Position numbers and translations under genes: made by a program. The notes below the pieces were generated by a model. It had not been told where the DNA came from. It worked only from the letters and a program-made list of their open reading frames with translations, and did not search any database. Source: an uncultured Chlorobiaceae bacterium (GTDB lineage: Bacteria; Bacteroidota; Chlorobiia; Chlorobiales; Chlorobiaceae). Taken from it: a stretch of DNA of 36,637 nt. Positions 2,372 through 9,400 of this stretch are shown in pieces (within the stretch, counting starts at the first letter, position 1; each line of letters opens with the position of its first letter). The stretch spans positions 1-36,637 of the forward strand of contig CAIQGA010000049.1 of NCBI GenBank assembly GCA_903871235.1, written 5' to 3'.

Positions 2372-3193
2372 TCACAGAATCCGGGGCAGCCCCATGAATA
2401 TCCTGAAAAACGTTTTTGCCAGCGGCTCATACCGCAAGCGACGGTTTCGCCCCTCTATGGCCCGTATTTTCGGCACAAGAACCGCCGCCACCTTTTCAGG
2501 CTTTTCCGCAATAACCCGTAAAAACCTCCCCGCCGATTCCGTCGCATCGCGAAGCAGCAGTTCTGTCAGCACAAGAGCCGGACTCAACTCATGAACTCCA
2601 ATACTCGTTACCCCTGCCGCCTTTAACTCCCCCGAAAGAAAGTGGGTCACTTCAGCCACCCCCCGTTTCGACGCCTTGTGGGGCACCGCTGAACGCGACA
2701 AAGCCGCCCCCACCGGGGAAAAGCCCATGTTAAAAATATGATAGCACGGTTTTTTTGTCGAGGGCTGGCGCTGCATCACCCTGACAGCCTCAGCACACAT
2801 AACAATGGTGCCCGAAAGGTTGGTCGAGCATGTTTCGCGAATATCTTCCCCGTCCAGCTCCCACAACGGTCGCTTCAAGAGCCCCGCCGTCCCTGCATTG
2901 TTAATCCAGCGATCCACCCTTCCAAGCCGCGAAACCGCAAAATCGGCAAGCAATGTTCCAGCGGAACGCTCGCCCACGTCGCAGGCGATGCCATACACCG
3001 CCCCTCCCGGCACAGCAAGCCTGAGGGAGTGCAACGCATCCTCTACACCCTGCCGATTTCTGCCGCAGAGCACAACACGGTCACCCGCAGCAAGAAACCC
3101 TGACGCCAGAGCGTAGCCCAACCCTTTGCTTCCACCGGTGATAACAACACCAAGAGAGCGTTCTCTATCCTTTATTGTACACGCTGACGCCAC
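2372..3193 (-). CDS. Short-chain dehydrogenase resembling chlorophyll b reductase (NOL/NYC1-like)
   Basis: A 273-residue classical SDR. The cofactor motif TGGSKGLG is at 19-26, CDV near 71-73 and NNAG near 98-101. Several blocks recall plant NOL chlorophyll b reductase: KGLGYALA, WINNAG, HIFN, HELSP and a C-terminal LVPKIRAI, where NOL has LVPNIRSI. A chlorophyll-type substrate is plausible in a green sulfur bacterium but is inferred. The active-site YxxxK reads H172-KAS-K176: the catalytic Tyr is His (codon at 2678-2680), while Ser159 and the Lys remain. The start is a GTG that shares one base with the stop of the cas6 fragment upstream, and no clear ribosome site is visible. It may be a variant enzyme or a non-catalytic binder. 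Confidence 0.7.
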   Translation of the reverse strand: MASACTIKDRERSLGVVITGGSKGLGYALASGFLAAGDRVVLCGRNRQGVEDALHSLRLAVPGGAVYGIACDVGERSAGTLLADFAVSRLGRVDRWINNAGTAGLLKRPLWELDGEDIRETCSTNLSGTIVMCAEAVRVMQRQPSTKKPCYHIFNMGFSPVGAALSRSAVPHKASKRGVAEVTHFLSGELKAAGVTSIGVHELSPALVLTELLLRDATESAGRFLRVIAEKPEKVAAVLVPKIRAIEGRNRRLRYEPLAKTFFRIFMGLPRIL

Positions 3194-3429
3194 TACAGAC
3201 CCTGTTCAACCTTCACCATAACAAAACCCATTGAATTTTTTTCACCAAACCCGCACTCATAACCAACCTCCATCAACTCACGCGGAGCCCTCAACCTGAA
3301 CGGCGCAAGCGTTCCCTTGATCTTTGTCTCATCAGAACGCCCCTCCTTCAACGTAAGGAGCTTCTGAACCTTCCCCTGCATCCGCCCAACATAAGCCGCA
3401 TCAAGAGCAAAACCAAACTGCCTTGGCAA
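3193..3429 (-). pseudogene. cas6: cas6 remnant: C-terminal part of a CRISPR-repeat endoribonuclease
   Basis: About 75 residues match the C-terminal end of Cas6 RAMP endoribonucleases, which cut CRISPR precursor RNA. The match includes a GKVQKLLTLKEG-like segment, IKGTLAPFRL and the hallmark glycine-rich end GYECGFGEKNSMGF. A full Cas6 is about 220-270 residues. Upstream the frame runs without homology to a stop near 3516, and the only nearby start is a TTG at 3427-3429. The N-terminal ferredoxin-like domain and the usual catalytic region are missing. No CRISPR repeats, other cas genes or array were seen in the window. I read it as a scar of a lost CRISPR-Cas locus. It is not expected to process RNA. 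Confidence 0.7.
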
Positions 3430-3782: not shown

Positions 3783-4544
3783 ATGAAACCACTTGACCTG
3801 AACGACGTATCGGCCTACGTTAAAGAGAACATCGGCACTTTGTATCAGAAAAAAATTGAAGTTCTTGATACGTTTAATTTCTCTGAAATGCTGGAACAGC
3901 AAAACTTCTACCTCTTCAGCTTAAAACGGGCTCAGAATATCGGCAAGATTGTCAGGGATCTTCTTGATGCCCACATCTCGTCAAACGAGGAGACTGTTTT
4001 TGGTGACTGGCTGGAAGGGCTGGCCATTTTTATCAATGAAAAAGTGTACGGCGGATGGAAATCGGGCATTGCGGGCATTGACCTTGAATTTGACAAGGAG
4101 GGGAAGCGCTTTATCGTCAATATCAAGTCGGGGCCGAATTGGGGGAACAGCAGCCAAATTGCCAAAATGAAGTCTGACTTCAAGACTGCGGCAAAGACGT
4201 TGCGCACGAGTAACTCAAAGCTTCAGGTTGTTGCGGTTAATGGCTGCTGTTACGGAAGAACCACCACTTCGGATCAGGGTGACTATTTCAAGTATTGTGG
4301 CCAGACCTTTTGGGAGTTTATCTCTTCAGACCCACATCTCTACACCGAGCTTATCGACCCGCTGGGTCACAAGGCACAGGAAAAAAACGAGGAGTTTCAG
4401 GACTCCTATGGCCGGATGCTCAATAAATTCACCTTTCAATTCGGGAGCGAGTATTGCGACGACAGTGGTGCTATCAACTGGCAAAAACTCGTAGCCTTCA
4501 ATTCATCTGCGATCCCGTCGCCGGAACGCCGATCGACGACATGA
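3783..4544 (+). CDS. PmeII-family type II restriction endonuclease, orphan
   Basis: A 253-residue protein whose core GIDLEFDKEGKRFIVNIKSG, followed by NWGNSSQ, I recognise as the PmeII group of type II restriction endonucleases. The PD-(D/E)xK nuclease signature is likely formed by Asp100 and Lys115 in the NIK segment, with Glu79 in GDWLEG as a possible extra ligand. The start is supported by a strong SD. No DNA methyltransferase gene accompanies it in this window, which is unusual for an active type II enzyme. The C-terminus (about IPSPERRSTT) may be altered compared with family members; I cannot test this. It stands between the cas6 scar and mnmA, consistent with a transferred or decaying defence locus. 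Confidence 0.65.
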   Translation: MKPLDLNDVSAYVKENIGTLYQKKIEVLDTFNFSEMLEQQNFYLFSLKRAQNIGKIVRDLLDAHISSNEETVFGDWLEGLAIFINEKVYGGWKSGIAGIDLEFDKEGKRFIVNIKSGPNWGNSSQIAKMKSDFKTAAKTLRTSNSKLQVVAVNGCCYGRTTTSDQGDYFKYCGQTFWEFISSDPHLYTELIDPLGHKAQEKNEEFQDSYGRMLNKFTFQFGSEYCDDSGAINWQKLVAFNSSAIPSPERRSTT

Positions 4545-6424: not shown

Positions 6425-9400
6425 ATGAAGGACACACTACTCGAACTGCTCAAAGAGCGCATTCTTGTGCTTGATGGTGCGATGGGCACCATGATTCAGC
6501 GCCATAAATTACAGGAAGCTGATTATCGGGGCACACGGTTTGCCGACCACTCGCATCCGCTTATCGGGAACAACGATATTCTTGTACTGACCCGCCCGGA
6601 TATTATTTATGCACTCCATTGCGACTTTCTTGAAGCTGGTTCCGACATTATCGAAACCAACACCTTCAATGCCAACCCGATTTCGCAGGCTGACTACAAT
6701 GCCTCTGAGCTGGTGAAGGAGCTGAATGTTGAGGCGGCCCGCCTTGCGCGAAAAGCGGCGGATGAGTATACCGCACGCACTCCTGATAAACCCCGCTTTG
6801 TTGCAGGCTCCATCGGCCCGACCAACAAAACGCTCTCGCTCTCGCCGGATGTGAACAATCCCGGCTTCCGGGCGGTCACTTTCGAGGAGGTGGTTGAGAA
6901 TTACACCCTGCAACTTGAGGGGCTTATGGAGGGTGGCGTTGACTTGCTGCTTGTTGAGACGGTCTTTGATACGCTGAACTGCAAGGCGGCCCTTTTTTCA
7001 ATTGAAGAGTTTTTTAACCGTACCGGCGTGCGCGTACCGGTGATGGTCTCCGGAACGGTTGTGGATGCCAGCGGGCGAACCCTCTCCGGCCAGACAACGG
7101 AGGCGTTCTGGATCTCCATCGCCCATACGCCCGACCTGCTCTCGATCGGGCTCAATTGTGCCCTTGGTTCAAAACAGATGCGTCCGTTCATTCAGGCTAT
7201 GGCTGGAATTGCCGAGAGCTATGTGAGCGTCTATCCCAATGCGGGGCTGCCGAATGAGTTCGGTGAGTATGACGACTCCCCCGCCTATATGGCCGAGCAG
7301 ATTGCCGATTTTGCCACCTCAGGTTTTGTCAATATTGTGGGTGGCTGCTGCGGCACCACTCCGGGCCATATCAAGGCGATTGCCGAGGCGGTCAAACATA
7401 TCAAGCCGCGCCAGCGCCCTCTGAAAAAGCATGAGTTACAGCTCTCCGGCCTTGAGCCGCTTCTGGTCAACCGCACAACCGGCTTTATCAATGTGGGTGA
7501 GCGCACCAATGTGACCGGATCAAAAAAATTCGCCCGCCTTATCAAGCAGGGAAACTACGACGAGGCGCTCTCGATTGCCCGCCAGCAGGTGGAGAGTGGT
7601 GCGCAGGTGATTGATGTCAATGTGGATGAGGGTATGCTTGACTCTGAAGCGGTAATGAAGGAGTTTCTCAACCTGATTGGCTCCGAGCCGGAAATTTCAC
7701 GCGTACCGGTGATGATCGACAGCTCGAAATGGTCGGTCATTGAGAGCGGCCTGCGCTGCGTTCAGGGCAAAAGTATTGTCAACTCCATCAGCCTCAAGGA
7801 GGGTGAGGAGCTTTTCCGCGAGAGGGCACGCAAGGTGTTGCAGTACGGTGCGGCCGCCGTGGTAATGGCTTTCGACGAAGCAGGACAGGCCGACAGTTTC
7901 TGGCGCCGCATTGAAATCTGCAAACGCGCTTACGACATTCTGACACAACAGGTGGGCTTCCCTGCGGAGGATATTATTTTTGATCCCAATGTGCTGACGG
8001 TTGCCACCGGTATTGAAGAGCACAACAACTATGCGGTCGATTTTATCCAAACTGTTGTGTGGATAAAGGAGAACCTCCCTTATGCAAAGGTCTCCGGCGG
8101 TATCAGCAATGTCTCCTTCTCGTTCCGTGGCAACGAAACGGTTCGTGAGGCGATGCACGCCGCCTTCCTCTATCACGCCATTCAAGCCGGGCTCGACATG
8201 GGTATTGTGAACGCAGGCCAGCTTGCCATCTATGAGGATATTGAGCCTGAGCTTCTGGTGCGGGTTGAGGATGTGCTGCTCAACCGTCGTCTGGATGCGA
8301 CTGAGCGCCTCGTCAGCTTTGCTGAAACTATTCAAAATGGCGGTGAAAAAACTGAGGCCAAGGCGGCTGAATGGAGAAGCCTGCCGGTTGAGGAGCGGCT
8401 GCGCCACGCACTGATCAAAGGGATTGTGGAGCATATTGAGGAGGATACCGAAGAGGCACGCCTGCTCTATCCAAGCCCGCTCCAGGTGATTGAGGGGCCG
8501 CTGATGAACGGGATGAACGCCATTGGTGACCTCTTTGCCGAAGGGAAGATGTTCTTGCCGCAGGTAGTCAAAAGTGCCCGTGTGATGAAACGCTCGGTTG
8601 CCGTGCTGCTGCCGTACATCGAAGCGGAGAAGGCGCTGAACAAGGATACCCGTGCGGCGGCCAAGGTGCTGCTGGCAACGGTCAAGGGGGATGTGCACGA
8701 TATCGGCAAGAATATTGTCGCTGTTGTGCTTGCCTGCAACAACTACGATGTGGTCGATATCGGCGTCATGATGCCGTGCGACAAGATTCTTGAAGCCGTT
8801 GAGCGCGAAAAAGCTGACCTGCTTGGCCTGAGCGGCCTCATCACCCCTTCGCTCGACGAAATGGTGCATGTTGCCAGCGAGATGGAGCGGCTTGGCATGA
8901 AAATCCCGCTCCTCATCGGGGGGGCCACCACCTCAAGAATGCACACTGCCGTAAAAATTGCGCCGGTCTATTCAGGCCCGGTTGTTCAGGTGCTCGATGC
9001 CTCCCGGAGCGTGCCGGTGGTCAACAGCCTGCTCAATGGGGCGCTCAGCCCCGCTTACATTGCCCAGCTCAACATGGAGCAGGCCGGACTGCGCGAAAGC
9101 CATGCGTCACGCACCTCCGCCATCAAGTACCTGTCGCTCCAGGAGGCACGTAACAATCGTCCTGCGCTTCCGACCGTCATCTACAAGCCGCTGAAACCGG
9201 GCATTACCCTCTTTGAAGAGGTTACAGCCCCGGAACTGCGCCCCTATATCGACTGGACTCCCTTTTTCATGGCATGGGAGCTGCATGGCCGTTACCCGCA
9301 GATTCTTGATGATGCGAAGTATGGAGTGGAAGCAACAAAGCTCTTCAACGACGCCAACAGCCTGCTTGACCGGATTGAGCATGAGCAACTGCCAATCCTG

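Follow-up and report, generated by a model that had tools for sequence, protein, structure and literature searches.

The locus described here raises the question of whether an SDR that has exchanged its catalytic Tyr for His is still an enzyme, and on which kind of substrate it would act. In SDR textbooks the Tyr of the YxxxK motif is the proton donor. The window, i.e. the whole stretch of 36,637 nucleotides that was analysed, represents contig C49 in a genome of 3.3 Mb and 234 contigs from an uncultured Chlorobiaceae bacterium. Each of the 20 relatives that bear a name is a MAG from uncultured Chlorobiaceae or Chlorobium, so the DNA is that of a green sulfur bacterium. The gene encoding this protein, here called His-SDR, and the other features are listed in Table 1; its real start is possibly a few codons off the listed GTG, and the N-termini vary among relatives.

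Table 1. Coordinates of the features discussed (window positions, unless a locus is named)
Feature	Position	Strand	Evidence or context
SDR gene (His-SDR), 273 aa, GTG start	2372..3193	(-)	PF00106 match and orthologues
Residues 18-29, ITGGSKGLGYAL, with the TGxxxGxG cofactor motif	3107..3142	(-)	Conservation in covering loci
Asn125 codon, candidate catalytic-tetrad Asn	2819..2821	(-)	Asn in 66/66 covering loci
Ser159 codon, candidate catalytic Ser, 13 residues before His172	2717..2719	(-)	Ser 60, Thr 5 of 65 loci
His172 codon CAC, place of the SDR catalytic Tyr	2678..2680 (read 2680-2678)	(-)	Pairs with Tyr in 1vl8 and 6hno
Lys176 codon, K of the HxxxK motif	2666..2668	(-)	Lys in 66/66 covering loci
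ORF of 78 aa, immediately upstream of the His-SDR gene	3193-3429	(-)	Match to PF01881 (E 1.4e-14), restricted to the C-terminus of Cas6
EcoO109I-type restriction endonuclease gene	3783-4544	(+)	PF14511, E 5.2e-81
Phe-SDR, C. limnaeum	L094:5899-6675, L165:1328-2104		Near cruB and bciD
Phe-SDR, G007	L180:6974-7747		Near cruB and bciD
Phe-SDR, G274	L174:1-597 with L191		Near cruB in bciD region
Phe-SDR, G017	L190		About 7.5 kb from bciD, cruB-like stretch between

The protein matches the classical SDR profile PF00106 with an E-value of 5.7e-27 (94.9 bits against a curated cut-off of 26.6), and among the matches listed from NCBIfam only SDR models were found, all far below their cut-offs. The TGxxxGxG and NNAG motifs as well as the Ser, Lys and Asn of the family are present, the Ser with some uncertainty of register, and the catalytic Tyr is absent. 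Here, the YxxxK motif reads HKASK, and in phmmer alignments His172 pairs with the YxxxK Tyr of two solved SDRs, 1vl8 and 6hno; one transition (CAC to TAC) separates the codon from Tyr. A sequence-only reading of this DNA had proposed the exchange, its motif, its codon and the single transition, and the ORF and the alignments confirm all four. The register of Ser159 is uncertain by one residue: it matches the Ser of 6hno, and the Ser of 1vl8 falls on Phe158. Structurally, the AlphaFold2 model has a mean pLDDT of 62.6 and is poor in the active site, where residues 158-178 stay below 50.

The His site was read in 67 loci from 66 genomes, 66 of which (65 genomes) cover the site; locus L209 of genome G020 ends before it, and genome G058 is represented by two pieces, both covering it. 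His172 is present in all 66 covering loci, i.e. in 65 Chlorobiaceae genomes, which greatly exceeds chance, and is encoded by CAC in 40 and by CAT in 26 of them, so that the codon drifts and the residue stays. Lys176, Asn125 and the NNAG motif (residues 98-101) are each found in 66/66 covering loci, and residue 159 is Ser or Thr in 65/65. For cofactor binding, Gly20, Gly24 and Gly26 are each conserved in 64/64, Thr19 in 63/64 and Arg45 in 64/64 covering loci. Eleven pairs, hand-chosen among relatives, showed dN/dS values of 0.10-0.51, eight of them below 0.20. Since His172 is fixed in the covering loci and dN/dS is below 1, it is a selected residue and no mutation; purifying selection keeps the His-SDR and its lineage-fixed His. 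Whether green sulfur bacterial orthologues share the His had been named by the sequence-only reading as the point to be checked, and they do. A single transition could have turned Tyr into His, but a sporadic mutation, a sequencing error or a pseudogene in the window strain has a negligible probability and was rejected, given His in every covering locus, dN/dS below 1 and an internal stop in none of the matches listed.

The function that we favour, tentatively and with slightly less than even confidence, is the following: the Chlorobiaceae possess a lineage of classical SDRs, NOL/NYC1-like by comparison with provisional sequences, which carries His for Tyr throughout and would still perform NADP(H) hydride transfer using His172. 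Mechanistically, NADP(H) would bind at TGxxxGxG and Arg45, and Asn125, Ser/Thr159, His172 and Lys176 would form the putative active site. Within the latter, His172, with its pKa lowered by Lys176, may act as proton donor or acceptor instead of Tyr. The substrate would be a bulky carbonyl or alcohol; owing to a NOL-like C-terminal block it is possibly a tetrapyrrole, which is a guess by analogy. Against this reading stand the low-confidence model around the His, the lack of a pigment operon in the neighbourhoods compared, the 20 Chlorobiaceae genomes and the 12 other genomes of the order that are without the gene, the altered Ser loop and the long branches outside the His clade.

For the origin of the exchange, a tree of 61 rows was calculated from a 63-row alignment minus L008 and L092, which are duplicates of L091 and L180. 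The 22 His rows form one clade with a support of 100/100, whose long stem measures 1.8 changes per column. The set that is sister to this clade (the whole at 99/96) comprises Tyr-bearing SDRs, the actinobacterial L160 and a 9-row Phe group, the latter supported by 100/100 and placed among the Tyr rows with moderate support (94/89 and 90/59). For the joins outside and around the His clade the tree programme gave a warning of long branches coming together. It is therefore more certain that the His rows are monophyletic than which rows stand next to them. The Tyr to His change would have happened once, before the split of Chlorobium and g2. The Tyr SDRs, with YGTTK or YGTSK and a NMEGxGSxG loop, are found in many Chlorobiaceae, including the window genome, which has one copy of this NOL-like paralogue (L091 on G000:C60). 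It belongs to the same superfamily with about 30-37% identity, but differs from the His-SDR in this motif, in its separate clade and in the NMEGxGSxG-type Ser loop, which is replaced by NMGFSxxG in the His-SDR. The only other His row of the tree, L002 (G000:C134:21289-21870), is an SDR of the window genome with HSTAK. It has HxxxK at the same motif as the His-SDR, but is FabG-like, with SiaM and 3-oxoacyl-ACP reductases as best PDB matches, and lies distant on the tree. Thus, SDRs acquired His at the Tyr place on more than one occasion, and the His-SDR lineage is not unique in this respect.

In an extract of the plant SDR inventory, NYC1/NOL is given as chlorophyll b reductase (PMC3541173). 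For the comparison, provisional Arabidopsis NOL and NYC1 stretches were used instead of database records. These are classical SDRs like the His-SDR, with 32-42% identity over 234-286 aa to the 22 His rows, and the blocks HIFN, SPGxVxTxLL and LVPxxR are common to both. With the best piece per row and without L002, the median score of the provisional NOL was 163.5 bits with the His rows (22), 114 with the Tyr rows (30) and 113 with the Phe rows (10), that of the provisional NYC1 148.5, 127.5 and 119.5 bits, respectively. In a tree that includes them, and from which the long branches L002, L003, L004, L006 and L007 were also omitted, the provisional sequences join the His clade at 97/95; NOL and NYC1 do not form one group there, and the NOL join is flagged as a possible long-branch artefact. 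On the contrary, NOL and NYC1 carry the catalytic Tyr where the His-SDR has His172, and there is a GAGS loop where the His-SDR has NMGFSxxG. Unlike the plants, the hosts of the His-SDR are not known to make chlorophyll b, and 62/66 of them are without bciD. The grouping and the scores agree with the NOL resemblance proposed from the sequence, with the provisional sequences on the other side of every comparison, so that a NOL/NYC1-like nature of the His-SDR can be taken as a lead. Since the exchange is a fixed feature of the lineage and no mutation, the function of the His-SDR may well differ from that of the plant pigment enzyme. A literature search found nothing on SDRs with Tyr replaced by His or on chlorophyll b reductase in green sulfur bacteria or Chlorobi, by which its absence from print is not established.

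The distribution of the family was determined using a 29-row profile (A1), with carriers defined by E<=1e-40. Here, 66/86 Chlorobiaceae genomes carry the His-SDR, over the two genera Chlorobium and g2, the latter holding C. limnaeum; 11 of the 20 non-carriers have a completeness of 90% or more and a contamination of 5% or less. An earlier search at 1e-20, which counted weaker paralogues in, had matched 54/61 Chlorobiaceae genomes. At the carrier threshold the His-SDR was found in 0/308 other Bacteroidota genomes sampled and in 0/12 genomes of the same order outside Chlorobiaceae, one of which is presumably the chlorosome-bearing Chloroherpeton. At E<=1e-25 three of these 12 have weaker matches, all bearing Tyr. 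A tblastn search of plasmids was negative at 1e-20. At 1e-12 it yielded 26 records, each of them an SDR or without annotation, with 33.5% identity for the best one; a single scan of viral contigs found no His-SDR.

Does the His-SDR act on bacteriochlorophyll e (BChl e)? According to the sequence-only reading, the enzyme could act on bacteriochlorophyll intermediates with a 7-formyl or 7-hydroxymethyl group, and the NOL-like sequence, in the provisional comparison, would be in line with this. Furthermore, the His-SDR is present (L070) in C. limnaeum, which produces BChl e (PMC5473272). As bciD query, the C. limnaeum radical-SAM frame adjoining cruB and a BchF paralogue was used (L165:5121-6329:-), named by this context; an excerpt of PMC3613366 describes the cruB-bciD-bchF2 cluster. 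The frame named bciD matched an NCBIfam radical-SAM model above cut-off, and the one named cruB had no Pfam match. At E<=1e-60, bciD is present in 9/86 Chlorobiaceae genomes, and the window genome has no match; the latter contains two BchF paralogues compared with three in C. limnaeum. The His-SDR occurs in 4/9 bciD-positive against 62/77 bciD-negative genomes (Fisher p 0.029, and p 0.013 for 65 good genomes, kinship being ignored in both), and 5/9 bciD genomes are without it. In C. limnaeum itself the His-SDR lies about 1.2 Mb from bciD, and the cruB-bciD region holds a different SDR, with Phe. The His-SDR is also present in G014, which we take to be the BChl c producer C. tepidum TLS. Due to this distribution, the lack of a bciD match in the window genome and the presence in G014, a role on 7-formyl pigments is unlikely. 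As reductase or oxidase of the C7 formyl or hydroxymethyl group in BChl e metabolism the His-SDR is a very improbable candidate, which was rejected since the gene is neither confined to nor linked with bciD. Probably, it is not the BChl e 7-formyl reductase, and BChl c synthesis probably does not depend on it.

The different SDR of the cruB-bciD region, here called Phe-SDR, is NOL-like as well and has FGTAK or FGTTK in place of YxxxK (FGTAK in C. limnaeum and G007). In several bciD clusters it is found close to cruB (Table 1). In G042, cruB and bciD share one contig and the Phe row is on another (L178, L185); in G054, G299, G315 and G060, bciD occurs with neither cruB nor Phe-SDR in the stretches examined; G003, G031 and G049 have Phe rows and no bciD match. 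Within the bciD neighbourhoods examined, the Phe-SDR goes with cruB, and as a candidate for BChl e or isorenieratene metabolism it is to be preferred over the window gene. The Phe-SDR (L094, L180) has in common with the His-SDR that it is a Chlorobiaceae SDR with a replaced catalytic Tyr, but the replacing residue is Phe, pigment genes are near, and it sits with the Tyr paralogues on the tree. This position (94/89 and 90/59) suggests a probably independent loss of Tyr. Further Phe-type copies are L198, L199 and L200 (from G031, G049 and G007); in L198 and L200 the tetrad column of the alignment no longer holds Asn, and in L199 the motif Lys is replaced by Asn, so by sequence their active sites look like they are decaying.

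A wider idea would join both lineages: a NOL/NYC1-type family of pigment-binding SDRs of the Chlorobiaceae would have lost Tyr twice, once to His, in a lineage that most Chlorobiaceae possess, and once to Phe, in a lineage associated with the carotenoid/BChl e cluster. We regard this as improbable. If it were true that the His and Phe SDRs act on tetrapyrroles or carotenoids, a re-engineered chemistry in pigment turnover, by a His/Lys proton relay or as non-redox work, would result, and plant chlorophyll b reductase would have its bacterial sister branch in the His lineage.

An active SDR on a non-tetrapyrrole substrate, such as an isoprenoid quinone, a lipid or a sugar, is somewhat less improbable, yet still unlikely. 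The gene neighbourhood bears on this: in 21 chosen loci the neighbours vary between lineages, and no operon with a pigment gene was seen in these 21 neighbourhoods. Due to this variation, a function based on an operon was rejected. In close relatives the SDR precedes an NDUFA9/NmrA-like gene, which follows 3' on the same strand in 23/79 loci examined (L010-L017, L039-L050, L057, L079/L080), where the 79 include repeat copies of the same genomes and many loci with short flanks. The eight best-scoring relatives (L010-L017) all show this arrangement; a 24th locus, L083, has a distant match of 26% to this neighbour. The window genome has only a 48% paralogue of it, and in five other genomes tested (G014, G010, G026, G001, G051) the gene lies away from the SDR, which makes the pairing weak evidence of a shared function. 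Furthermore, an excerpt of PMC6166724 describes the photosynthetic pigment pathways of the Chlorobiaceae as complete. As far as this excerpt goes, a missing step of biosynthesis is less likely than an accessory role, a role in turnover or a non-pigment substrate. Against a substrate other than tetrapyrroles stands that the His-SDR is confined to phototrophic Chlorobiaceae in the samples searched, and that the nearest families in the provisional comparison act on chlorophyll.

The serious rival is a pseudoenzyme, which we consider doubtful and yet well short of unlikely to the point of dismissal: the SDR chemistry would be lost, and the protein would be a sensor or scaffold that binds NADP(H) and perhaps pigment. 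A residue usually deemed essential is lost, the stem of the His clade is long, and a related lineage has Phe at this place, so the family tolerates the loss of Tyr. HSCARG and NmrA carry His for Tyr. In an extract of PMC3793261, both are SDR members that act as regulators via NAD(P) sensing. However, the His-SDR keeps Lys176, Asn125 and Ser/Thr159 in every covering locus, in contrast to L198, L199 and L200, and the place of Tyr is taken by one fixed residue, His, rather than by varying ones. The conservation of Lys, Asn and Ser favours an enzyme, i.e. hydride transfer with His172, over the pseudoenzyme. The lineage represents a natural test of His replacing Tyr while the other catalytic residues stay. 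It bears on the origin of plant chlorophyll b reductase and on a possible undescribed pigment-handling step in green sulfur bacteria.

In the window, the SDR gene is flanked on one side by a DUF900 alpha/beta hydrolase and on the other by the Cas6 C-terminal fragment of Table 1. The nearest strain, G011 (94% identity), has a stretch like the Cas6 fragment too. Here (L079:5035-5979 and 6893-8752), upstream, an AIPR gene (PF10592) lies between the SDR and this fragment, and the NDUFA9/NmrA-like gene follows just downstream; at the corresponding places the window is without both. AIPR is linked with phage defence. The DNA homology between the window and G011 stops at the SDR stop codon, around window position 2376.
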